DNA from: Leucocoprinus leucothites
Taxonomy: Eukaryota > Basidiomycota > Agaricomycetes > Agaricales > Agaricaceae
Length of the DNA: 64,000 nt
Direction of reading: 5' to 3'
NCBI GenBank assembly: GCA_013368445.1
Contig: JAACJO010000002.1
Location: forward strand, 1,860,001-1,924,000
Shown one piece after another: positions 7,559 to 53,732 of the stretch. Under the pieces are notes generated by a model. It searched no databases. It was not told the origin of the DNA and saw only the letters and a program-made list of their open reading frames with translations. The first letter of the stretch is position 1. Each line of letters starts with the position of its first letter. Both the position numbers and the translations under genes were made by a program.

Positions 7559-8764
7559 TCATTTCCAATACCCATGTCCCACACCATCCTTCAATCCCTG
7601 CGCCATCGCTAGCTTCGCCTCCTTGATCGCCACAAGCCTCTCAAGTGTCCTTCCATGCGCCTGTAACACCCTTGTAGTCTCCCTCGATGCCGACACCTGC
7701 TCATCCAATGCACTAACCTGCTGTTGCAACATAACCTGATTTTGAAGTTGCGCCTGCATATTTTCTCTCAATCTGATCTCCACATTGTCCACTGCTGATG
7801 ATAATCGTGCGACTTCTTGCGAAAGACTTGGGGAATGACCGGGAGCCCATGATAGTTGGGGTGGAAGGGGCTGAGGAGACTTCATCGCGATTTTAGTAAT
7901 GTTGCATCACAGATCTGCAAACAAACTTACCACCATCCTAGTGTCCTGTTCAGTGACAATTGCAGGTGACCTGATCTCTATTGCTCCAAATGTATCATCA
8001 TCCACCATGGGCGGGATTTCAGGCAGATTCCACTGCGAAGAGGATGATGGTTGAGTAGACGGAGGTGGTGCAAAACTCGATTCCCAATCACTGGAGCTCG
8101 ATAGCAACAGTTGACTCATGGGAGGCACTGTTATTTTTCGTTTTTTTGATTCTGTCGTTCTGATCAGCGACGAGCTCACTCCTTGACTAGAGGCCTCCTT
8201 CTTTGGATCATCCTGCGGATTGTAACACCCCTTCTTTGCTTGTGCACAATACATACATTTCCCTAATCCACACTGCGACTTACACTCCCGCTGCCCAGTG
8301 ACGCATTGCGAACACGTCATGTAACTCTTTCGGTAAGGTAGCCCATCGGTCGGTTTCTGCTGATGGGCACCGTTCTTCTTCCAAGCGAAGCTTGATGAAG
8401 CCCTACTCGACCTTGCGACAGGAACGGATACATGATCCATTACTTCGCACGTTCCCAACATTGATGCCCTTGTTGGTGCTCTCCCCTTACCCTTCGATGA
8501 TATCTGCGACTCTTCCTCCTCATCATCATCATCATCATTGCTTCGGACTATCTGTCATGATCTAGTAGTCCTTCGTGTCGCAGTAGAAGCTGGATTTGTT
8601 GTCGCACTATTGCTGGGTTGACTCATTGTCATTCCTAACACCACAGCCATCGCTGGCCGTATGTTCGCTCCCTGTTTGGTGTTCCGACGTTGAATCTCGG
8701 CCATGAGTTTGTCATTGGTCATTGCACTTAGGTTGGGGGTTTTCTTTGAGGAGTGGGGAGCCAT
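7559..8764 (-). pseudogene. gypsy-1 antisense gene: Zn2Cys6-like, coiled-coil protein
   Basis: Gene on the strand opposite to gag-pol. The chosen ATG at 8764 starts MAPHSSKK, like MAPNSTTQ in gypsy-2. Exon 1 (8764-7931) is 278 codons with one TGA at 8555-8557, where CGA is likely ancestral; an acidic DDDDDEEEE run follows. Cysteines near 8313-8228 are spaced C-X2-C-X6-C-X8-C-X2-C-X6-C (starting CSQCVTGQREC, ending CMYCAQAKKGC), the spacing of fungal Zn2Cys6 binuclear clusters. A Ser/Lys-rich region with KKRK follows. A 60-bp intron (7930-7871, GTAAGT...CAG, TTACTAAAA branch-like) joins in phase 0 to exon 2, a heptad-like Leu/Val/Gln helix of ~100 residues ending at 7559. Total about 381 codons. 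DNA or chromatin binding is inferred from the Cys pattern; no homologue was searched. Confidence 0.7.
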
Positions 8765-11915: not shown

Positions 11916-14179
11916 TTTTTTTTTTTTTTTAAAAAAAATCAATGATTTATTACACAGTACCCAGTCACAGTCCAGGCCTGCCAACATAGTACAGGACCTA
12001 AGTACTGCTACCTAAGCCAAACACTACAAAGACGGGAATACATAAAGTCCTGTCTGAATATAGTACACTACTCGATGGCAAAGAGATGGGGCATAGTAAC
12101 AAAGTGAAATGAAACTAAAGTCCAACTTGCAGACCTCTAACAGTAAGCTTACATGTGCATGTGGCCCTAGCAACATACCGATGGGGTTGGAAGATGTGTT
12201 GAAGCAGGTACATGACCTACTACCAGGGCCTCCTATTGTCCTCTTTGTGACAGCTAAGCCAATCACGGTCAAACCAGTGGCACCAGAACGGGCACTTTCG
12301 ATCATCAGCTGTATGGTTGCCCTTGCAGTTGATACATGAGATGTGGGGACAGGGCTCTCTGGCGGGTATAGGCAGGATAGGGGGGTTTGCCTTTAGACTC
12401 CACTTACAGCATGACAATGTGGAGCAATAATTCTCACTATGGTGAGGACCACCACACTGGGAACACCTGAGAGCACAGTTGTGGCAGATGGGAGTAGAGT
12501 GACTGAAGCACCAGCAGCGCTGGCACTGAGGGACACCAGGGTAGGCACAGGCAGGCTTAATGACAGCCTGCATACCGTTGAAGTTGAGGTACTTGTTGAG
12601 GAGCTTCTTGGCACCAGCTCCTGACTGAGAGTCCCATAGGTCAAACCAAACAGTGGCAGTGTTGGCCTTGGGGGAGTTGCACATGATGTGCATGGATGAA
12701 ACATCAGTGAAAGTGTCCTTGAATGGAGACAATCACATGTGATCAGTGATCTGGACTGGCATAATATGGACACTGTTCACATAGAAGGGGATGTCAAGGA
12801 TCTTAAAATAAGACCTTGACCTGGGACAGTGCATCTTCAGCTTGAACAGGGCAGTGAAGACGGAGGGGATAGCAGACTCAACAACAGTAATTTTGGAGTC
12901 CGAGGGCATGGCAGAGGTATACAGTGCAATGGTGCTGTATGCCTTGGTGATATTCTAAATGCACAAGGACAACTTGGCACATGAGAGGGCATCATTGAGA
13001 AGGCACATGGCCTTGTGATGGAGATAAGTGATCTCACTGGCATTACCAGTGAAATCAAGGAGTAGTTGGTGGTGGGTGGGCCTGGCAGTGGTCATGCACA
13101 GCTTCTTGGCAGAGCTAGTGGTGGTAGTGGCAGCCTGATGCATCATGGTGATGTAATCAGGGTTGAGGGAGGGGTTTGCCTGTGCCAGCTTGATCAGTGA
13201 CACAGGTGACACCAAAGTGCCAGAACGAGTGGCTTCCACAAACAAGCACTGATGAGGTACCAGAGCGGGAGTGGGGATGGGCACCTTGGTGGGTGCTTGA
13301 GGGGGGCCACTAGCACATGCCTTAGGGGGCGCTTACTTGGGCAGTACAGGGGGATGGGCTGGAGCAGGCTGTGATGCCTTGGGTGTTTGCTTGGGCACCT
13401 TGGGGGAGCCCATGTCAATGTCATGTGGTCCTGCTTTGTCAGCAGATCCATGGGTCACCTCATAGATGATGTCTATATGTTTAGGGCCCGCCCCCACAAC
13501 TCTAGTGGCACAGTCCTGAATGAAGTCTGCAAATGTGGCCCATCCCTGGGCTTGTATACACTTGCTGTCAAGGGCTATGTTACCTTGGCCTTTGTTGAAG
13601 ATCTCTGCAACAAGCCCAATGAGGGTCAGGATGAGCACAGCGGTGGTGGTCTCTGGAAGAGGGCCTGGGGGGGCTGACCCAGCAAAGCAGGTGAAGAAAT
13701 GGAGCCCAGCAAGAGCCTGAGTCTCAACAGACTCCTCAGTTGACCTAGAGGAGACAGCAGATAGCGGTGCTAGGGGAGGAAGGTTCTTCACAGGGTAGAA
13801 CATCTGTCCACCAGCAGTGAAGGGCTTTGGGGACAGTGATGAAATGTCAGCCATGAGGTGAACTACCAGCTGAAATGGAACATCAGCAGCAGGCAGGGAG
13901 GAGGGTCTGGGTGATGAGATGTCAGCCTGGGAAGAACCAGGGAACCTGCAAACATTGTGGGGGTCATCATAGGGGTCGAGATGTTCATCCTTGGACATCT
14001 CAGTGATGTTGAGCTCATCGGCAGAGGCTTCGGCAGACTCAGTTGTTTGGCAGGGAGGCTTGTTAGACTTAGATTTATGTTTACCCATGTAGCTACAAGT
14101 AGACACAGTAGTATTGAACTCAAAATGCAACATACCAACTAAGAGATGGTGGTGGTAAGAGGACAAGAAGGGATGTGTG
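11916..14179 (-). mobile_element. E1: full-length ORF1-only non-LTR element
   Basis: 2,264-bp element inserted in the RT of LINE-C, with a perfect 14-bp TSD. Its 5' end (14175 leftward) is CATCCCTTCTTG then CTCTTACCACCACCATC, shared with E2, E3 and E4. It then has a single ORF1, a ~290-bp 3' UTR, a terminal GCGCAGACTGC block, and a tail of 8 T then 15 A. There is no endonuclease, RT or RNase H. Because the 5' end is complete, the lack of ORF2 is not due to 5' truncation. It must have moved using enzymes from another LINE. Four extra bases (14176-14179) lie between motif and TSD. Confidence 0.9.
12220..14088 (-). pseudogene. E1 ORF1: RNA-binding, zinc-knuckle protein
   Basis: One continuous frame of about 623 codons from ATG 14088 (MGKHKSKSNK) to the stop at 12220, broken by three stops: TAA near 13333, TAG near 12955 and TGA near 12733. 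N-terminal acidic and Ser/Pro-rich stretch (DEHLDPYDDPHNVCRF), a helix-rich middle, a Pro-rich linker, LIKLAQANPSL, MTTARPTHHQLLLDF, then WFDLWDSQSGAGAKKLLNKYL, and three CCHC clusters (CQRCWCFSHSTPIC, CSQCGGPHHSENYC, CINCKGNHTADDRKC) ending DNRRPW. Typical of LINE ORF1 proteins that coat element RNA. The TGA at 12733 corresponds to CAA in E3, implying ancestral CGA. Confidence 0.85.
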
Positions 14180-15118: not shown

Positions 15119-15677
15119 TGTCACGAGCCGGGCCTCAAGAACGGCTGACGGTTTGAACTTGGTAATATTTTCATGAAATACTATCCGTTCTCGCATATCG
15201 GTTACTTCGGTTTTTATCGGTCTTTTACCTTCGGACTTATTCTGACATCTTCCATTTTATTAATTCATACCGCCTTGTCGAAATTTTCTGACAACCGTTT
15301 AATAGTAAATTTTCTATCTTCTAGCCTTGTAAAATTTGCGGACTCCACTTTGATTATTTCTCCGTTTACTACTTTGCTTGTTTTCCTTATCCGATCCTAT
15401 ATTCCGCATCGTATATAAGTAGCACGACTTTGTACTTGGATGGGGCAGTCTGATAATCAACTTAGCGATACGCTACTTTCCTCTGCTCTCTGTTCGTCCT
15501 CAGCTCTCTTATATAGTCTGAAATCCGGGTCAAGCGTCAGTAGTTGGCACAACACATAAGTTGAGGCCACGATCCGCTCCCGCATCCGACGACCGGCTCC
15601 TGCCTTACCTCTGTCACACCTCTGTCCAACCGGTCCTTGACGTCGGCTCCCTATCCGTAGCGTTTGCGCACTTAACA
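15119..15677 (+). repeat. gypsy-2 5' LTR (559 bp)
   Basis: Begins tgtcacgagccgggcc, ends gcacttaaca; partner 22762-23320. Confidence 0.97.
15412..15457 (+). promoter_or_regulatory. gypsy-2 LTR TATA box and predicted RNA start / self-primer
   Basis: TATATAAG (15412-15419) lies 35 bp before agtctgataat (15447-15457), which is the exact reverse complement of 15680-15690 just after the LTR. This matches the Tf1 self-priming design and predicts RNA starting near 15447. The same layout occurs in gypsy-1, although the 11-mers differ. Confidence 0.75.
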
Positions 15678-15724: not shown

Positions 15725-17317
15725 ATGGTCAACACCCATACTATCAAGGGCAAGACCTCCACCGTTGCGCAACCAGAGCGGAAACGCTCTCACACTCCTC
15801 CTCCTGTCCCAAGCTCTTCTCGTCTGACCGACGACAATTCTCGTATCAGTATCCGTGCTCGTCGTTCACGTCGTCTTAATCCCAATCTCCCAGAAACTCC
15901 TCGATCTGCTAGTTCTCCTCCACCGCCTCCTCGTCGTTTTCGAAATATCCGTTCTCCCAGAACTCCTGCCCCACCTGGCGGTCTGCCATCTGACAGAGAT
16001 CCATCCGATCCCTCGGAACCGGGTGACTCTGATGGTCCAGACTATGCCGATAATCAATCTATGGGCCACGATGGCGATGATGAAGACAATGAACCCATCT
16101 ATAACAGCTCCCCCGGTGGTCCTGGTGACCCCGACGACAATGATCCTGAAGATCCTTCCCACTCCTCCGACGATGAGCCTCTTCCTCCTCGACGGGTACC
16201 TCATCCCCGAGCTCCCCGACAGGATCCAAACAATGATCGTCTAGCCGAGGCCTTGGGTAGGCTCGCTGACAATCTTGATCACCAAGCAGCTGCACAAGCC
16301 AACCAGACTCGCACCAATAAGGCTCGCCTCCCAGACACTTTTAGTGGCTCTGACCCCGAAAAACTCAACACTTTCCTAATCCAATGCCGTCTATATTTCT
16401 GAGCCAACCCCACACAGTTCCAGCACGACAATCAGAAAGTCGATTTTGCCATGACCTACCTCACCGGTGTTGCACTTGACTGGTTCAAGGTCGGCCTCAC
16501 TCAGGAAGAACAGGGTGTCTTCCATGACTGGTTCGAGGATTGGAATGCATTTGTCCGCGAGCTCCGTACGCATTTTGGCATTGCCAACCCAAAGGGAGAA
16601 GCAGCCGAGATGCTTGATACCCTTTGCATGAAACCGGGTGATAAAATCGCCACTTTCAACGTCGAGTTCCTCAAACACGCCTCTCAACTCGGTTGGAATG
16701 ACGAGGTCCTCTGCCATCGTTACTACAAGGGACTTCCGAACCGCATCCAAGACCCTCTCAGTACCCGTGAGCAGGGTAAACCCACTACTTTCGAGGAAAT
16801 GCATCGCTTGGCCATCGTTTACGACGGACGCTACTGGGAGCGTCACCGTGAACGTGTTCGTGCCCGCGCTGCAGAGAAGGATGCTGCCGATTCTCTGAAT
16901 CGGAAGCAGCCCAACAAGCCCTCGACCTCCAATCCTTCCAACCCGAATCCGTCACGTGGCCAGTCTCAACCTGGCAACAACAACAACAACAACAATCGAG
17001 GAGGCAACAACAGTAACAGCAACAACAACAGCAACCGTAATCAGTCGCAGGCCCCGACTACCAAATCCAACACCCCCGCTCCATCCACATCCAGTACCCA
17101 ACGCCCTACGCCGAAATTCGACCTATCTAGTAAACTCGGCCAAAATGGCAAACTGACACCCGAGGAGCAGAAACGACGCCTCGACGAAGATCTCTGTCTA
17201 TTCTGCGGTGGCAAAGGCCACAAGGTCGAGAATTGCCACAAGAAACAAAATCGGGCCAAGATCCGCAAGGTCGAAGCGGCTCCGCCTAAGGACTCTGAAA
17301 AGAGTCCGGAAAAATAG
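15725..17317 (+). pseudogene. gypsy-2 gag, one internal TGA
   Basis: Structural protein of the particle, ATG at 15725, 47 bp after the LTR. Basic Arg/Ser/Pro N-terminus, acidic Asp/Glu/Pro linker (16000-16190), capsid-like region (LNTFLIQCRLYF, LDWFKVGLTQEEQGVFHDW, LCMKPGDKIATFNVEFLKHA), Asn/Ser-rich linker with a long Asn run, and one knuckle CLFCGGKGHKVENC near 17209. The only lesion is TGA at about 16400 (LYF-stop-ANPT); gypsy-4 has TGA at the same codon, while gypsy-5 reads Cys. It ends at TAG after a run of A's, and pol lies in the -1 frame. Readthrough or two separate products cannot be excluded. Confidence 0.88.
17306..17317 (+). other. gypsy-2 gag-pol -1 shift region
   Basis: ccg gaa aaa tag: the gag stop follows an A-run and pol is continuously open in the -1 frame. 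The GAAAAATAG core is kept in gypsy-4 and gypsy-5. It is not a perfect X-XXY-YYZ heptamer, so the mechanism is less certain than in gypsy-1. Confidence 0.5.
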
Positions 17318-20300
17318 AGGGCGACCCTCAGGACTCTGCACAGACTGGGGGTCGCGTTGAGCTCATCTGTGCACCAGAGAGTCTCCTCCGCCTCAATGCG
17401 TCCGCTCTTTCCGACCCAAATTCTCTTATCGCTTCCCTCACTTCTTCTCTCATTTGCTCATCCGATAATATCCAACGGATACCGTTTTGTGCTCTCGTTG
17501 ATTCCGGCTCGACTCATTGCTTCATAGATTCTGATTTCGTCCGCACTCACTCTCTTCCGACTTCGCCCTTACCTCCTATCGAGCTTCGCCTATTTGACGG
17601 ATCGTCGAATAGTTACATTACTGAACTTGTGAATCTGCCTGTTACATTCTCTACCGGTGAATCTATGACTATTGACTTCTACGTCACTCAGCTTGATTCT
17701 TCCTGCTCTGTGGTACTTGGACACAACTGGCTCACCCGCTACAATCTGTTGATTGACTGGGTTTCGAGCAGTATATCTTTCCGATCGCATTTGCAGGATA
17801 ATCTTGCCCCTTCTGCCCGCGTCGCATCCGCTCCCATAGCGGCTCCTACATCGTCACCCGCTCCTAGTATGATGGCTGACACTCCTCCTCTGAATTCACC
17901 ATCCTCTGGGACTTCTATGTCTACTCCTGGTATTGCAACAGCTCCTCGCATTTCTATCATCAACGCTGCTGCATACATTCGCGCTTCGCGCCTTCCTGGT
18001 TCAGTAAACTTCCGCCTCAATCTCAGCTCGCCTTCCGCTTCCGCCAATTCGGCTCGGGTTTCCGACGAGTCAATTGACCTTTCTAAAGTGCCCGACGAAT
18101 ATCATGAATTCGCCGATGTGTTCAGCAAAGCTCGTGCTGACAGCCTTGCACCGCATCGCCCTTACGATCTCAAAATCAATATTGAAGAGGGTGCTCAACC
18201 TCCCATTGGCACTATCTATTCATTATCTCCATCCGAGCTTGAGTCGCTCTGCGAATTTATCAACGAACACGTATCTATTGGTTTTATCCGCCCCACTTCT
18301 TCGCCTCACGGCGCACCCGTTCTCTTCGTTCGGAAGAAAGACGGTTCATTACGACTTTGTGTCGATTTCCGCGGCCTCAATCGCATCACCAAGAAGGATC
18401 GCTACCCGCTCCCGCTCATCTCTGACCTACTCGACTCTCCTCGCAAAGCCCGCATCTACACCAAGATAGACCTTCGACACGCTTATTACCTCGTTCGGAT
18501 CGCTGAAGGAGACGAATGGAAAACGGCTTTCAGGACCCGCTATGGATCCTTTGAATGGCTGGTTATGCCTTTCGGACTCACCAACGCACCCGCAGCTTTC
18601 CAGCGGTTCATGAACAACATCTTTTCCGACCTCCTCGACGTCTGCGTCACAGTCTATCTCGACGACATCCTCATCTACTCTGACGACCTCGACACACACA
18701 AGAAACAAGTTCGAGACGTCCTCAAGTGGCTCCGCAAGCATGGCCTATATGCTAAAGCGGAAAAATGCGAGTTCCATTCCGATTCTGTCGAATACCTCGG
18801 GTATATCCTTTCACCAGCCGGTCTCAAAATGTCGGAAGACAAAATCAAAATCATCCAGGAGTGGCCTGAACTGAAGAAAGTCAAAGACATCCAGTCTTTT
18901 CTCGGTTTCGCCAATTTCTATCGACGCTTCATTTACAACTATTCCGATATCGTCGTCCCGCTTACGCGCCTCACCCGAAAAGCATCTAAGTGGAATTTCA
19001 ACGAACGGTGTCGCGAAGCCTTTAACTCCCTCAAAGAAGCATTCACCACTGCTCCTATACTCACTCACTGGATACCCGACACCCAGATCATCATTGAGAC
19101 TGATGCTTCCGATTATGCACTTGCTGCCATCCTTTCCATTGTCGCGGATGACAACGAAGTCCACCCGATTGCGTTCCATTCCCGCACCTTCAACATGGCC
19201 GAGTTAAACTATGACACTCACGACAAAGAGCTCCTTGCTATCTTCGAGGCTTTCCGCACCTGGCGGCATTACCTTGAAGGAGCCCCACTTCCTATTGACG
19301 TTGTTACCGATCACAAGAACCTGGAATACTTCTGCACTACGAAGATCCTAACTCGTCGACAGGCTCGTTGGTCTGAGTTCATATCACAGTTCAACCTCAT
19401 CATCCGTTTCCGACCCGGCCGACTCGGAACCAAGCCTGACGCTCTCACTAGACGATGGGACGTCTACCCTAAAGGGGGGAATAATGGCTACGCTTCGGTC
19501 AATCCTCATAATTTCTGTCCTGTATTTTCGCATGAACAGTTATCGGCTTCAGTTCGAGCTACTTATTTTTCAACTCCTTCCCTTCGCGCTGCCACCATAC
19601 TAGATCTCGAGAAACTTCATTCTGATATCCTTACTTCGCTCCCTCAAGACCCGATCGCATCCGCTCACATCACTCATCCCGAAGGCCGCTGGTCAGTTGA
19701 TTCCGCTGGTTTCCTTCGGCTCAACGACAGGATCTATGTACCCGACGTCAACAATCTTAGACTCAGAGTTCTACAATACAAACACGATCACGTCCTTTCT
19801 GGCCATTTCGGTCAGAACAAGACCCTCGAACTCATCCGACGCGAGTACACCTGGCCTGATATCCGATCTCAGGTCAAGGCTTTCTGTAAATCCTGCGTTA
19901 CCTGTATGCGATCCAAGTCTCAGCGCCACAAGCCATACGGTAACCTCAAGCAACTCCCCATTCCTGAACGCCCTTGGAATTCGATTTCAATGGATTTTAT
20001 CGAGAAACTCCCTTCTTCCTCTGGCTTTGACACCATCCTCGTTATCGTCGACCGACTCTCCAAACAGGCTGTATTCATTCCGACCCACGACACTATCACT
20101 TCCGCAGAACTAGCACGGTTATTCGTCATTCACGTATTCTCTAAGCACGGTGTTCCTTCTCATGTCACTTCCGATCGCGGTTCAGAGTTCGTCTCACACT
20201 TCTTCCGTTCCCTCGGCACGGCTCTGGACATGCGCCTTCATTTCACATCCGGCTATCATCCTGAAGGTGACGGACAGACGGAACGAACTAACCAAACGCT

Positions 20301-21069
20301 AGAGCAGTACCTCCGCGTTTACTGCAACTATCAGCAGAACAACTGGTCCGACCTCCTCCCACTTGCAGAATTCGCATACAACAACGCGCCCAGTGCTACC
20401 ACCGGAATTTCGCCCTTCTTCGCCAACAAGGGTTATCACCCAAACATTACAGTCCATCCTGAACGCGATATCGCATCGGCTCGCGCACACGACTTCGCAG
20501 TCGATCTCGACGAATTACATATGACTCTCAAGGCTGAGATAGCCACTGCTCAAGAACGCTACCAACGATCCGCTGATGCATGTCGGTTACCAGCCCCGGA
20601 GTTCAAAGTCGGCCAGAAAGTTTTCGTGAAAGCTCAATTCTTCCGCACTACCCGTCCATCCAAAAAGCTTTCCGAAAAATACCTCGGTCCATACGAAATT
20701 ATTGCCCAACCTGGCTCTCACTCGTTCACCCTTCGCCTTCCAGATTCCATGCGCGCTGTTCATCCTGTCTTCCACGTTTCCATGCTTGAGCCGACCACAC
20801 CCAATCCATTTTCCGATCGCACAGAACCGGCTCCTGCTCCCGTTGTCATTGACGGTGAGCCAGAGTACGAGATCGCCCGCATCGTAGACTCGAAGATCGA
20901 TCGACGTCGCGCATGCAAACTTCTCTACAAGGTCATCTGGTTGGGATATGAAGATACTGACGAAGAATCTTCATGGTTACCTGCTACCGAGCTTACACAC
21001 GCGACTGAACTTCTTTTTGATTACCATTCTGCTTATCCTGACAAGCCTGGCCCACTTCCTTTATCCTAG
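17318..21069 (+). CDS. gypsy-2 pol polyprotein (PR-RT-RNase H-IN-chromodomain)
   Basis: Open throughout, about 1,250 codons. Protease active site ALVDSGSTHCFID (~17493); RT with [24 protein letters not shown] and YLDDILIYS (18355-18680); RNase H with ETDASDYALAAIL and VVTDHKNLEYF; integrase HHCC domain (GHFGQNKTLELIRREYTWP, CKSCVTC), SMDFIEKLP, TSDRGSEF and HPEGDGQTE; a KYLGPYEI GPY/F module; and a C-terminal chromodomain-like segment (LLYKVIWLGYEDTDEESSWLP), which in chromoviruses directs integration to heterochromatin. All catalytic residues I can identify are present. It has no start codon of its own and is expected to be made as a gag fusion through -1 frameshifting. Complete enough to be a plausible active enzyme. 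Confidence 0.95.
19471..19483 (+). other. gypsy-2 central polypurine tract copy
   Basis: aaaggggggaata inside pol, about 250 bp from the element midpoint, repeats the core of the 3' tract (22749-22760) and recurs at the same place in gypsy-1 and gypsy-4. Confidence 0.6.
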
Positions 21070-21374: not shown

Positions 21375-22632
21375 CTACTTACTCCCACTCTCATCCTCCT
21401 TCTCTCCCTCATCCTCCTCCTCTCCAGCCTCCCCCTCATCCCCAGATCCAGCTTCCGACGTCTCGGGCACGTTCTTCTTCTTAGCAGCCAATCTGGCGTC
21501 CAACTCCGCCCGTGCCTTTTCATGCGCCTCATCGTCCATTACCTTGTCATCCAGAACAAGCCGGTCATAGAACTCTTCAAAGTCCTTAGCCAGCCCATCC
21601 ACGACCTTGGTCTGTGATCGGATACTTGACAATACTGCCAAGTGCTGCGTCCCCAACTCGGCTCGAATTCCCTTCAACTCCTTCAGGATAGCCGATTGTA
21701 CGGCCCGGGTCTTCCTTTGCTCGACGATGAGCTCGTACGTTTGCTCATGAGGCTGTTTGTCAGCCTCTGTAGGAACCGCACACTTCTGCTTTGAAGTATG
21801 GCACGGCTCACACATGTACTTGCCCCTGTGGATGTTGTCAGTTGATCAGCCGAGCCGAAGAATCGGGAATTACTCACGCGTCACTTTGCTCGGTGCAATT
21901 TTTTCCCAGGCGCAAGCACCGCCCGCACTCGTTATCTCCGCCCATTTTTATCTTCCCTCCCTTGGCATCGTAGTTTCCGCGTTTTCGGAGGGCGGCGGTC
22001 TCGTCTCTTCCGTCTCCGGCCAAACCTGAGCCGGGCGTCCACAGCGGGTCGTCATCTTGATCATCCAACTCCGTGAGTTGGTACTTGGAGGGGCCAGCGG
22101 CTGCACTCCGTTGAAGTACCCTGGCGGTCTCAGTTGGTCCGCTCGTGGGTTTTGCACAAGGCTTTCGAGCCCCGGTCCCTGCCTTCGCATTTTCTGTTGT
22201 CTTCGTCTTCTTCACCGGACTCTCCACTATCTCGACTTCCACCTCCATTGCTCTCTTCTTCCCTTTCCCTTTTTCTTTCTCCTGTCTCTCCTTCTCTTTC
22301 TTTTCGGCCTCTAACCGAATCCGTTCTGCTAGCTCGGCTTCCTCTCATTCCCTTTGCAACCGCTCCGCCTCTGCGGCCTCCCTCTTTTTCTTCTCCGCTT
22401 CCTCCGCCTCCCTCCGCTTTTTCTCAGCCATCTTCTTCCGTAATTCATCTTTTCTTTTTCGATGTTCCTCCTCCTCGCGCCTCTTTTTCTCTGCCTCCTC
22501 AGCCTCCCTTTTCATCCGTTCTGCCTCCTCGGCCACTTTGCGATCGTCCTCCTCGTCCATTCGTCATAGCTCGTCTTCCAGATCGATATCGGACATCGGG
22601 TCGGAGCCTTGAGTGGTGGAGTTGGGCGCCAT
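21375..22632 (-). pseudogene. gypsy-2 antisense gene: Zn2Cys6-like, charged coiled-coil protein
   Basis: Transcribed against gag-pol from its own TATA box (22687-22693). ATG at 22632 (MAPNSTTQGSDP). The first half is a long Lys/Glu/Arg-rich helix (about residues 25-110), then MEVEVEIVESPVKK, a Lys-rich stretch and SKYQLTELDDQDDDPLW. Next come CGRCLRLGKNC and, after a 52-bp intron, CEPCHTSKQKC. Spliced, the spacing is C-X2-C-X6-C-X10-C-X2-C-X6-C, the Zn2Cys6 pattern. The C-terminal part is helical and ends in an acidic Glu/Asp tail. Splicing gives 402 codons in frame, including the stop. Two TGAs (near 22565 and 22346) interrupt it; gypsy-4 has sense codons at both. Possible roles are chromatin or DNA binding, transcriptional control or assisting integration; none is proven. 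Confidence 0.8.
21826..21877 (-). other. Intron in the gypsy-2 antisense gene
   Basis: 52 bp from GTGAGT (5' end at 21877) to CCACAG (3' end at 21826), with CAACTGACAAC as likely branch point. Removal joins the two cysteine half-sites in frame (GC+G codon). Gypsy-4 keeps the same 52-bp length (53239-53290), but its donor is AT rather than GT. Confidence 0.75.
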
Positions 22633-22686
22633 GGTAGATAAAGGGGATTAAGTTGTGAGAAAGCTTAATTTTTCCCTCAGAGCGGA

Positions 22687-22693
22687 ATTTATA
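22687..22693 (-). promoter_or_regulatory. TATA box of the gypsy-2 antisense gene
   Basis: TATAAAT on the minus strand starts 61 bp before the antisense ATG. Gypsy-4 has the same box with the same 61-bp spacing. Confidence 0.65.
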
Positions 22694-22748
22694 CGGAGTT
22701 CAAATTGGTTCCCACGATCAAGTCACGTGGCTTCGAGGGCTCAGCCCT

Positions 22749-22761
22749 AAGGGGGGAATAC
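22749..22761 (+). other. gypsy-2 3' polypurine tract
   Basis: aaggggggaatac immediately before the 3' LTR. Confidence 0.85.
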
Positions 22762-23320
22762 TGTCACGAGCCGGGCCTCAAGAACGGCTGACGGTTTGAA
22801 CTTGGTAATATTTTCATGAAATACTATCCGTTCTCGCATATCGGTTACTTCGGTTTTTATCGGTCTTTTACCTTCGGACTTATTCTGACATCTTCCATTT
22901 TATTAATTCATACCGCCTTGTCGAAATTTTCTGACAACCGTTTAATAGTAAATTTTCTATCTTCTAGCCTTGTAAAATTTGCGGACTCCACTTTGATTAT
23001 TTCTCCGTTTACTACTTTGCTTGTTTTCCTTATCCGATCCTATATTCCGCATCGTATATAAGTAGCACGACTTTGTACTTGGATGGGGCAGTCTGATAAT
23101 CAACTTAGCGATACGCTACTTTCCTCTGCTCTCTGTTCGTCCTCAGCTCTCTTATATAGTCTGAAATCCGGGTCAAGCGTCAGTAGTCGGCACAACACAT
23201 AAGTTGAGGCCACGACCCGCTCCCGCGTCCGACGACCGGCTCCTGCCTTACCTCTGTCACACCTCTGTCCAACCGGTCCTTGACGTCAGCTCCCTATCCG
23301 TAGCGTTTGCACACTTAACA
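22762..23320 (+). repeat. gypsy-2 3' LTR (559 bp)
   Basis: Nearly identical to 15119-15677; followed by ccgat. Confidence 0.97.
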
Positions 23321-24342: not shown

Positions 24343-24750
24343 TTAGCTGCTGGGAGACAGTCAGTAATGAGGATGATTTTGTCGCACTGAAGGGAGATGG
24401 CCTTGGCAATGCCAATGTGAATGGAATAGAGTTCAGCATCTGTAGAAGATGCCCAGCCCCTTGCCTGTTTTGCATAGGACACTTGTTGTCCACTGCAATA
24501 TAAATGTGCTGCTGAAACTGCCTGAAGGGAACCTACAAGTGGAACAGAAGCATCAGTAACAACTGATATACAAGTATGATCAGAAGAGGAGGAAGAAAAA
24601 ACAGAGTTGAGGGACGATACATGTTTGTACATTTCATGTTTGTCCAAGCAATTACAAGGATGAAAATGAATGGAATCAGGAAAGATGTCCATGAGATGAG
24701 ACCCAGGCTTGGATTCAGGAGTGAAAGGAGAGAAAGAGTCAGAAATGTGA
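24343..24750 (-). pseudogene. RNase H segment in mosaic junction
   Basis: Reads SDSFSPFTPESKPGSHLMD, then an RNase H core: CISVVTDASVPL, ARGWASSTDAELYSIHIGIA (catalytic Glu) and KIILITDCLPAAK (second Asp). It is open and fused in one frame to ORF1 sequence on its upstream side (24751) and to endonuclease sequence on its downstream side (24342). The order ORF1 - RNase H - endonuclease is impossible in an intact LINE, so this is a recombinant or template-switch product. The long shared frame covers about 400 codons from 25451 to 24252. Confidence 0.8.
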
Positions 24751-26017
24751 TCAGTAATCTGGACCAGCATAATATGGATGCCATTCACATGGAAGGGGAT
24801 ATCAAGGATCTTGAGATAAGACCTCAACCTGGGGCAGCACATCCTCAGCTCGAATGGGGCAGTGAAGATGGAGGGGATAGCAGACTCGATGATAGTGATA
24901 TCAGAGTCTGAGGGCACAGCAGAGGTGTACAGCGCAATGGTGCTGTATGCCTTGGTGATATTCTCAATGCACAAGGACAACTTGGCATGTGAGAGGGTGT
25001 TATTGAGAAGGCACATGGCCTTGTGATGGAGATAAGTGATCTCACTGGCATCACCAGTGAAATCAAGGAACAATTGGCAGCAGGTGGGCCTGGCAGTGGT
25101 CATGCACAGCTTCTTGGCAGAGCTGGCAGTGGCAGTGGTGACCTGATGCATTGCAGCAATGCAATCAGGGTTGAGGGAGGGGTTTGCCTGTGCCAGCTTG
25201 ATAAGCGACACAGGTGATGCTAGAACGAGCGGCTTCTGCAAATGAGCACTGATGAGGTGCCGGAGCAGGAGTGGGGATGGGCATCTTTGTGGGTGCTCGA
25301 GGGGGGCCACTAGTATGTGCCTTAGGGGGTGCTTGCTTGGGTGGTACAGGGGGACAGGCCAGGGTGGGCCACAGTGCCTTGGGTGTTTGCTTGGGTGTCT
25401 TGGGGGAGCCCATGTTGATGTCACATGGTTCTGCTTTGTCAGTGGATCCATGGGTCACCTCATGGATGACACATGTGTCTTTAGGGGAGGCTTCAGGCTT
25501 ATTGAACCAAGTGAAGCCCTGCATGAAGGAACAAAAGGTAGTCCAGCTGTGGCTGGCCCACCCCTTGCCCATGGAAATGTGTGTACTCCTGTGCCCACTC
25601 ATCTCAAATTCATAGATGGCACTAGCAAGATAGCTAGTACACACCTTGGCATAGTCCTTGTCAAGGAGGGAATTATCAGGGAGTTCACACATGAAGCATG
25701 AGAACTTCTTGAGGCTGTTGAAAGCCTGCTTGGCCATGGCATTGTCTCCAGACATGGTCCCAGAGGAGGACAATGGGGTGGATGGCATAATCAGGGGAGG
25801 AGTGGGAACTGGGTAGTATGTGGTACTACCAGTGACAAGAGGGGCCTTGGGACCAAAGGTCACCGGAGGCTGAGTAGTAGGCACCAGCAATGGAATATTA
25901 GCAGGCACCAAGGGGAGAGGTGAGGGCAACTGAACATCAGCCCTCATAGAGGTGGCCAGAGCCTTGAAATCCGCCATTGTGCAGACTGGCTGGGTAGAGG
26001 TGGAGGGCCTGGGGGCC
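24751..26017 (-). pseudogene. ORF1 fragment of an E2-like ORF1-only element
   Basis: From 26017 leftward: MADFKALATSMRADVQLPSPLP, Pro/Thr-rich sequence, AFNSLKKFSCFMCELPDNSLLDKDYAKVC, the TCVIHEVTHGSTDKAEP motif, a Pro/Ala linker, LIKLAQANPSL, ARPTCCQLFLDF and VQITDH, then a switch to RNase H. It aligns with E2 from about 30000 onward, so about 100 N-terminal codons are missing and the zinc knuckles are lost. It directly follows the poly(A) of E3 on the same strand. Confidence 0.75.
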
Positions 26018-52367: not shown

Positions 52368-52422
52368 AGGGCTGAGCCCTAGAAGCCACATGACTTGATT
52401 GTGGGAACCAATTCAAACTCCA

Positions 52423-52429
52423 TATAAAT
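52423..52429 (+). promoter_or_regulatory. TATA box of the gypsy-4 antisense gene
   Basis: TATAAAT starting 61 bp before ATG 52484, the same box and spacing as in gypsy-2 despite heavy divergence elsewhere. Confidence 0.65.
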
Positions 52430-52483
52430 TCCGCTCTGAGGAAAAAATTAAGCTTTCTCACAACTTAATCCTCTAATACTACC

Positions 52484-53732
52484 ATGGCACCTACTTCCAC
52501 CACCCAAGGTTCCGACCCAATATCTGACAATGACCTAGAGGAGGAACTTTGCAAGATGGAGGAAGAGGACACTTGTCAAGTGGCCAAGGAGGAGGATTGC
52601 AAAAGGAGGGAGGCTGAGGAAGCCTCAAAAAAGAAGCAAGCAGAGGAAGAGCAGCAACAGAGGAAGGAAGAGCTGAGGAAGAAAATGGTTGAGAAGAAAT
52701 GTCGAGAGGTGGAAGAGGCAGAGAGGAAGAGGAAAGAGGCCAAAGATGCTGCACAGCTGCAAAGGGAGAAGGAGGAGGCCGAGCTTGCAGAGCAGATTTG
52801 GCTAGAGGCCAAAAAGAAGGAAAAGGAAAGACAAGAGAAAGAGAAGGGCAAAGGGAAGAGGACAGTGATGGAGGTGGAAGTGGAGATAGTAGAGAGTCCA
52901 GCAAAGAAGAAGAAAATGACAGAAAATGCAAAGGTGGGAAACAGGGTTCAAAAGCCTCATGTGAAACCAACGAGTGGGCTGGCTGATACAGCCAGGCTAA
53001 TTCAATGGAGTGCAGCTGCTGGTCCCTCCAAGTATCAACTTACGGAGCTGGATGATCAGGACAACAACCCACTGTGGACACCCAGCTTAGGTTTGGCTGG
53101 GGATAGAAGAGACAAAACCACTGCCCTATAAAAACGCGGAAACTACAATGCCAAGGGAGGAAAGATAAAGATGGGCAGAGATAACAAGTGTGGACAGTGC
53201 TTGTATTTAGGCAAGAACTGCACTGAACAAAGCGATGCATGAGTGACTCCTGATTTCTCGATTCAGCTGAGCAACTGACAACTACCACAGGGGCAAGTAC
53301 ATATGCGAACTGTGCTATACTTCAAAGCAGAAGTGTGCAGTTCTGACAGAGGCTGACAAACAGCCTCATGAGCAAACATATGAGCTCATTGTCAAGCAGA
53401 GGAAGACCCAGGCTGTGCAATCAGCTATCTTGAAGGAGTTAAAGGGTATTCAAGCTGAGTTGGGGACACAGCACTTGGCTGTGTTGTCAAGTATCTGATC
53501 CCAGACCAAGGTCATAGATGGGCTGGCCAAGGACTTTGAAGAGTTCTATGACCGGCTTGTCCTGGATGACAAGGTGATGGATGATGAGGTGCATGAAAAG
53601 GCACAGGCAGAGTTGGATGCCAAATTGGCCACTAAGAAGAAAATCATGTCAGATGCTGGATCTGGGAATGAGGGGGAGGCTGGAGAGGAGGAAGGTGAGG
53701 GAGAGGATGAGGGTGAAAATGGTAGTAAGTAG
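52484..53732 (+). pseudogene. gypsy-4 antisense gene: Zn2Cys6-like, charged coiled-coil protein
   Basis: Counterpart of the gypsy-2 antisense gene: MAPTSTTQGSDP start, Lys/Glu/Gln-rich helix, MEVEVEIVESPAKK, SKYQLTELDDQDNNPLW, then CGQCLYLGKNC, a 52-bp intron-like gap (53239-53290) and CELCYTSKQKC: the same C-X2-C-X6-C-X10-C-X2-C-X6-C. Helical C-terminus and an acidic end at 53732. Spliced length 399 codons with the stop, against 402. All six zinc-pattern cysteines are kept although nearby CpG sites have decayed. Lesions: TAA near 53130, TGA near 53498, and a donor changed from GT to AT. It shows that the gene was already present before gypsy-2 and gypsy-4 diverged. Confidence 0.78.

Follow-up and report, generated by a model that had tools for sequence, protein, structure and literature searches.

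A conserved, spliced antisense gene in a Ty3/gypsy chromovirus of Leucocoprinus leucothites and its candidate role as a Zn2Cys6-like regulator of the element

The stretch of Leucocoprinus leucothites DNA analyzed here (64,000 nucleotides in full, referred to as the window) contains a Ty3/gypsy chromovirus that carries a gene-like unit on its minus strand, in the interval separating pol from the 3' LTR. This locus raises the question of whether the unit is a third gene of the element and, if so, what its product might do. All elements used for comparison stem from one genome, the 47 Mb genome of L. leucothites.

The host element

The element is bounded by two plus-strand LTRs at 15119..15677 and 22762..23320, which differ at 5 of 559 positions, and is flanked by the 5-bp target duplication CCGAT. 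Both full LTRs were visible in 12 of 20 records examined, and all 12 showed a 5-bp duplication, consistent with the LTRs and short duplications of Ty3/gypsy chromoviruses. The gag region (15725..17317, plus strand) consists of the ORFs 15725-16402 and 16451-17317 and matches Retrotrans_gag (PF03732, E 4.3e-07); in the window copy it is interrupted by an in-frame TGA at 16400-16402. The pol ORF (17629..21069, plus strand) encodes reverse transcriptase, RNase H, integrase, and then a C-terminal chromodomain, the order characteristic of chromoviruses, with matches to RVT_1, RT_RNaseH, Integrase_H2C2, rve, SH3_Tf2-1, and Chromo that all exceed the Pfam cut-offs (Chromo: 27.2 bits, cut-off 25.1). 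The polypurine tract preceding the 3' LTR (22746..22761, plus strand) is conserved between the element families A and B described below, and over 35–37 bp also with family C. A second, nearly equal polypurine tract is found within pol (19467-19484), after the RNase H and before the integrase region, and could be a central priming site. Diverged direct repeats at 12737-13486 and 24745-25486 (87% and 82%) flank the element on both sides, which suggests that it is nested in another repeated element.

Anatomy of the antisense gene

On the minus strand, a TATA box (TATAAA, 22693-22688) begins 61 bp before an ATG at 22632. Exon 1 (21878..22632) encodes a charged helix, a basic stretch, and a first C-X2-C-X6-C triad (21895..21927); it is separated by a 52-bp phase 2 intron (GTGAGT...CAG, 21826..21877) from exon 2 (21375..21825, stop included), which encodes a second C-X2-C-X6-C triad (21780..21812), a further helix, and an acidic tail. 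The spliced frame carries the motif C-X2-C-X6-C-X10-C-X2-C-X6-C at codons 236-267, and since the intron splits Cys 3 from Cys 4, the six-cysteine cluster is present only in the spliced form. A preliminary description of the locus had already proposed this TATA box, 61-bp leader, ATG, and 52-bp intron, as well as a cluster joined only by splicing, and all of these features were found at the positions it gave. Its argument that an intron on the antisense strand withstands retrotransposition, since the gag-pol RNA does not splice it, is sound on general grounds.

The window copy itself contains TGA codons in exon 1 at codon 23 (22566-22564) and codon 96 (22347-22345) and is dead, as it cannot give rise to the full protein. 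The predicted structure of an intact relative, P0001 (mean pLDDT 63.5), comprises a long helix at 15-121, a second helix at 272-343 behind the cluster whose blocks mostly have pLDDT values of 78–90, and a low-confidence tail; Zn2Cys6 proteins have a coiled coil behind the cluster, for which the second helix is a candidate. A second, older copy of the antisense region with 80% identity is located at 52416..53732 on the plus strand and contains stops and an AT donor.

Copy number and purifying selection

A DNA search of the genome yielded at least 40 distinct copies as best matches (family A), which were aligned; the start region is absent in two of them. Among the 40 matches listed, TATAAA and the ATG are each present in 37 and all six cysteines in 30. 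The intron of these 40 copies has a length of 52 bp in 39 cases and of 51 bp in one, with GT..AG ends in 29 and AT..AG ends in 11. Twelve of the 40 listed copies have a stop-free frame, including L010 with its changed donor, and the remaining 28 are decayed or incomplete. The LTR pairs of L017, L018, and L019 are identical (0/559 differences), which shows that copies with an open antisense gene have spread recently. Spliced products agree letter for letter with public gene models (P0001 with L021, P0002 with L025, and P0003 with L047), all of which are named “hypothetical” at NCBI; the UniRef name of P0003 begins with “Zn(2)-C6 fungal-type domai”.

In six pairs formed by four stop-free alleles (L017, L013, L010, and L025), dN/dS ranged from 0.07 to 0.13 with bootstrap limits of 0.04–0.18, and 114 of the 162 differences between L017 and L013 fell on third positions. 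Neutral simulations (2,400 under four mutation models) resulted in mean dN/dS values of 0.48–0.99, the lowest single value being 0.29. A ratio near 1 among related elements, which the preliminary description had named as counting against its proposal, was not observed; a spliced, protein-coding antisense gene that is part of the element and conserved in related elements is supported. As judged from these substitutions, the antisense frame is conserved as a protein-coding gene under purifying selection. The gene agrees with the antisense accessory genes of LTR retrotransposons (aORF-3R) in lying antisense in the pol–3' LTR interval of most family members and in its protein-level conservation relative to simulated neutrality; its conserved TATAAA is a candidate promoter for antisense transcription. 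Pairs that involve decayed or near-identical copies gave ratios close to the simulated minimum or higher (window copy/L009 0.31, window copy/L010 0.28, L047/L050 0.40, and, on very few changes, L017/L021 2.18 and L017/L022 0.67), and these pairs were rejected as evidence on selection.

As a separate observation, 50 of 66 stops in decayed copies (for example, L033 and L039) coincide with a CGN codon of the window copy, and 11 of the 40 listed copies have lost the donor G. Both patterns point to CpG decay by methylation or a RIP-like process.

A second family with the same gene

A protein search of the genome revealed many more diverged antisense matches beyond the 40 copies. At least 78 exon-2 matches among those listed were picked by hand, with exon-1 rows dropped, and for 69 of these 78 listed core matches the opposite strand encodes an integrase C-terminus no more than 6 kb away; three of the nine listed matches lacking an integrase match (C7, C3, and C41) are family A copies. 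Six diverged loci were retrieved (L047-L052), five of which (L047-L051) constitute family B, while L052 is nearer to family A and has an intron of 54 bp. The spliced frames of L047 and L050 encode 402 and 404 amino acids, respectively; decay or incompleteness affects L048, L049, and L051. The family B intron (52–53 bp) occupies a site identical to that in family A, and the cysteine spacing with its linker of 10 and the place beside the integrase are common to both families.

The integrase C-terminal pieces of families A and B share 73.5–88% identity and exon 2 shares 32–40%. At the integrase C-terminus, dN is about 0.07 and dS 0.9–1.2, compared with a dN of about 0.5 and a nearly saturated dS of 1.7–2.1 in the antisense core, so that the antisense protein evolves much faster than the integrase while the cluster is kept. 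Protein searches for relatives in other species returned only L. leucothites proteins, and neither a scan of viral contigs nor a plasmid DNA search revealed a relative. Since gene sets often mask transposon-borne genes, the absence of relatives in other species is weak evidence.

The six-cysteine cluster

The preliminary description had classified the cluster as Zn2Cys6-type. The canonical Zn2Cys6 spacing is C-X2-C-X6-C-X5-12-C-X2-C-X6-8-C with the basic half first. Families A and B, with a linker of 10, agree with this spacing; their half-motifs, however, are in reversed order, the first triad resembling the second half of the Zn_clus profile (PF00172) and the second triad its first, basic half. 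The search against Zn_clus that the preliminary description had proposed left the spliced proteins below the cut-off of 21 bits, with whole-protein scores of 13.1 bits in family A and 9.0 bits in family B, and Zn_clus, at this level, was the only Pfam family obtained at E values up to 10 for the full-length proteins of both families. The earlier classification thus stands with regard to the cysteine spacing, but neither with regard to the Pfam cut-off nor to the order of the halves, and by sequence the antisense protein is not filed as a member of PF00172.

In the native order, the best stretch of the first triad aligns to profile positions 16-34 of 39, whereas exchanging the two halves resulted in a single match that starts at profile position 3 and reaches position 31 or 32. 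The exchange increased the score from 19.0 to 24.2 bits in family A, from 17.8 to 23.0 bits in L052, and from 14.8 to 20.0 bits in family B, which even then remained below the 21-bit cut-off. The same operation lowered the scores of Gal4 (47.9 to 34.7 bits) and Ppr1 (49.6 to 34.5 bits), a loss of 13–15 bits. The swapped order was hence superior in all three domains from Leucocoprinus, and the native order in both canonical ones. A search of the PDB with the native order gave the LIM protein PINCH as best match (E 0.015) ahead of AlcR, whose first half aligned to the second triad (E 0.045); with the swapped order AlcR ranked first and was matched over both halves (E 0.006). The cluster region of the structure model is poor (pLDDT 43–46 per block), comparing its fold with the PDB revealed no structure at an E value of 0.001 or below, and the matches to A1 in a profile search of the PDB were weak and of unrelated kinds (best E 0.42).

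With modest scores, these comparisons support the interpretation of the cluster as a permuted Zn2Cys6-like domain. It resembles the fungal Zn2Cys6 domains (PF00172; Gal4, Ppr1, and AlcR) in its two C-X2-C-X6-C halves, one of which is basic, and in its piecewise profile match, but differs from them in the reversed halves, the native score below the cut-off, and a score of only 20–24 bits after swapping, compared with 48–50 bits for native Gal4 and Ppr1. A permuted zinc cluster, if true, would represent a domain architecture that is invisible to a standard Pfam search.

Promoter block and CGG triplets

Two plus-strand CGG triplets at 22683-22685 and 22694-22696 flank the TATA box (CGG-N8-CGG). 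This block, CGG-AATTTATA-CGG, is unchanged in the window copy, L017, L047, L050, and L051, and has one changed triplet in L052. Over the region between the beginning of exon 1 and the first LTR bases, the window copy and L047 agree at 81% over 180 columns, with values of 84% over 154 columns for L050 and 80% over 161 columns for L051, while the LTR bodies of families A and B are alignable only in pieces. Zn2Cys6 proteins read CGG triplets, and the block is therefore a candidate operator. The leader region shows no enrichment of CGG triplets (3, compared with a mean of 4.9); the LTR contains 26 CGG and CCG triplets, compared with a shuffle mean of 15.8, a number reached in only 1 of 1,000 shuffles. 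At the sequence level, the frame, the splice signals, the promoter block, and the cysteines are shown to be preserved in many copies and in a second family.

Proposed function and alternative explanations

The reading that we favor, with a probability of roughly 0.55, is that the element encodes a third gene whose product is a self-made nuclear DNA-binding regulator with a permuted, Zn2Cys6-like cluster that controls the element's own transcription. The gene would have a TATA promoter of its own, be transcribed in the direction opposite to gag-pol, and lose a single intron by splicing, giving a predicted product of approximately 400 residues with a long charged helix, a basic stretch, the six-cysteine cluster, a second helix, and an acidic tail. 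This protein would enter the nucleus, pair via its helices, and bind DNA through the cluster with its permuted halves, the most likely targets being control regions of the element such as the CGG-N8-CGG block over the TATA box and the CGG-rich stretches of the LTR; by binding there, the element may control its own transcription. The combination of strong selection, a defined promoter and intron, and a candidate binding module with a candidate site makes such self-regulation by an element directly testable.

A less probable but serious alternative is a real accessory protein that acts elsewhere, as a nucleic-acid chaperone, as a nuclear import or export factor for RNA or cDNA, or as a chromatin partner of the integrase. 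It would account equally for the coding evidence from dN/dS and simulations, and the conserved place next to the integrase end would fit it as well; such roles are discussed for plant antisense ORFs in the accessible part of a review (Vicient and Casacuberta, 2020; PMC7264820). Against it speaks that the sole Pfam family listed, albeit below its cut-off, is the DNA-binding Zn_clus. Improbable is a model in which the antisense transcript matters as RNA, through double-stranded RNA and silencing, and the protein is secondary. That antisense transcripts can feed RNA silencing is discussed in the same review (PMC7264820), but in the antisense gene selection acts on the protein frame (0.07–0.13) while the intron diverges by 11.5–25% among L017, L013, and L025 and, between L017 and L010, at 9 of 52 positions.

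It is also improbable, and perhaps slightly more so, that a host gene was captured recently. Introns are typical of host genes; however, 64 of the 78 listed core matches lie at a distance of 312–571 bp from the integrase C-terminus, and the gene is common to families A and B, whose integrase C-termini have diverged to a dS of 0.9–1.2. A capture long ago is possible. That the frame is open by chance, or results from coding on the sense strand, has a negligible probability, because, even though charged low-complexity repeats can hold frames open and the opposite-strand frame -1 also has low ratios (0.14–0.22), each comparison shows a stop in 6–8 codon pairs of frame -1, ratios in the other four frames are 1.47–3.25, the spliced frame is kept across families A and B, and its dN/dS contrasts with neutral simulation.

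Mosaic elements

The antisense gene and gag-pol have different divergence profiles. Between the window copy and L017, synonymous differences amount to 0.4–2.6% in gag and pol and to 47% in the antisense gene, so that the latter seems to move as a cassette. Along the sequence, these two copies have no difference in 269 bases at the end of pol, 3 in the next 305 bases, 84 in 382 in the 5' half of exon 1, and none in the 68 bases of the leader. Conversely, L009 shares its antisense allele with the window copy (pS 0.07), whereas its gag-pol is more distant (pS 0.10–0.14). In comparisons of the window copy with L010, L013, L017, and L025, the antisense gene differs at 32–49% of synonymous sites and gag-pol far less, and these elements are thus mosaics. 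The simplest reading of the aligned sequences is recombination between elements, and the pattern suggests that the antisense gene evolves by other rules than gag-pol. A far-reaching model in which a mushroom chromovirus clade has a spliced antisense regulator with a circularly permuted Zn2Cys6 domain that would control its own promoter and LTR via CGG repeats, and in which divergent alleles are shuffled among elements with near-identical gag-pol as a possible identity cassette for recognition or exclusion, is speculative and, taken as a whole, unlikely.

Comparison with known systems

Both plant gypsy elements and Boty are known to carry antisense accessory genes with suspected nuclear roles, so that the Leucocoprinus gene is not of a wholly new kind. 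According to the accessible parts of two papers, antisense ORFs of plant gypsy elements (gene23 of Grande, RIRE2, and TRP28 of Retand) are located between pol and the 3' LTR and kept in most copies, the Grande gene has its own promoter and a nuclear protein, and DNA binding is suspected for the plant antisense ORFs (PMC7264820; PMC11963269). As far as these excerpts go, the gene described here shares their place and strand; it differs in host kingdom, in the element, and in that its full-length proteins have no Pfam match to TRP28, and its own features are the conserved intron and the six-cysteine cluster. Among fungi, Boty-like gypsy elements of Botrytis cinerea have an additional antisense gene, brtn (Zhao, 2011, as cited in an excerpt of PMC8365987), the position of which is mentioned in the available portion of PMC7264820. 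The Leucocoprinus gene is likened to brtn, as an additional antisense gene of a fungal gypsy element, by the description in these excerpts and not by sequence, and brtn has an ascomycete host. Antisense genes have been described in LTR retrotransposons from the 1990s onward, but no function has been established for them (PMC7264820), and the accessible text of a survey of fungal LTR elements (PMC3248453) does not contain the word “antisense”. Among the titles and abstracts listed in searches of open-licence PMC papers, none describes the present combination, which subscription papers may contain.

A further parallel is HBZ of HTLV-1, a spliced antisense gene of a retroelement that encodes a nuclear regulator of the bZIP type. 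By analogy, the Leucocoprinus gene resembles HBZ as a spliced antisense gene, and the nuclear regulator role of HBZ would be a putative one here; unlike it, HBZ is a bZIP protein of an animal retrovirus, and no relation is implied.

A different antisense gene in family C

Integrase rows with at least 57% identity (117 in total, 33 weaker rows being dropped) included 47 without an antisense match within 2.5 kb. Thirteen stretches lacking such a match were read, one of which belongs to the window's other gypsy element. Eight of the 13 contain C-X2-C-X6-C-X8-C-X2-C-X6-C in an antisense frame, one of these with a stop inside the motif; of the rest, one has a changed cysteine, the front is replaced in L056, and three have no cluster, including L063, which looks like a piece of family B. 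The members of this sister family C (L053-L055, L057, L058, L060, L061, and a decayed copy at 7559..8764 on the minus strand of the window, with coordinates computed by hand from offsets) have, at the position that the antisense gene occupies in family A, a different one with its own 51-bp intron, a six-cysteine cluster, and one extra cysteine. L053 encodes 384 residues once the 51-bp GT..AG intron, which is located behind and not inside the cluster, is removed. In the 120 bp upstream of the family C gene TATAAA was not found.

The family C cluster has no Pfam match to Zn_clus in either native or swapped order, so that Pfam does not support family C as a bearer of the same Zn_clus. A profile comparison aligned the clusters of families C and A over 40 columns with a probability of 11%, so that a relation between them is suggestive only; family C may be a remote relative or a case of convergence. 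For family C, dN/dS was 0.29–0.39 in 33 pairs with pS >0.07, a range shared with the smallest values of the neutral simulations, for which the family A gene was used, and 0.32, 0.94, and 0.79 in three near-identical pairs. In L056, a transposase-like frame at positions 1-441, of the DDE type as judged by eye only, interrupts the family C antisense gene.
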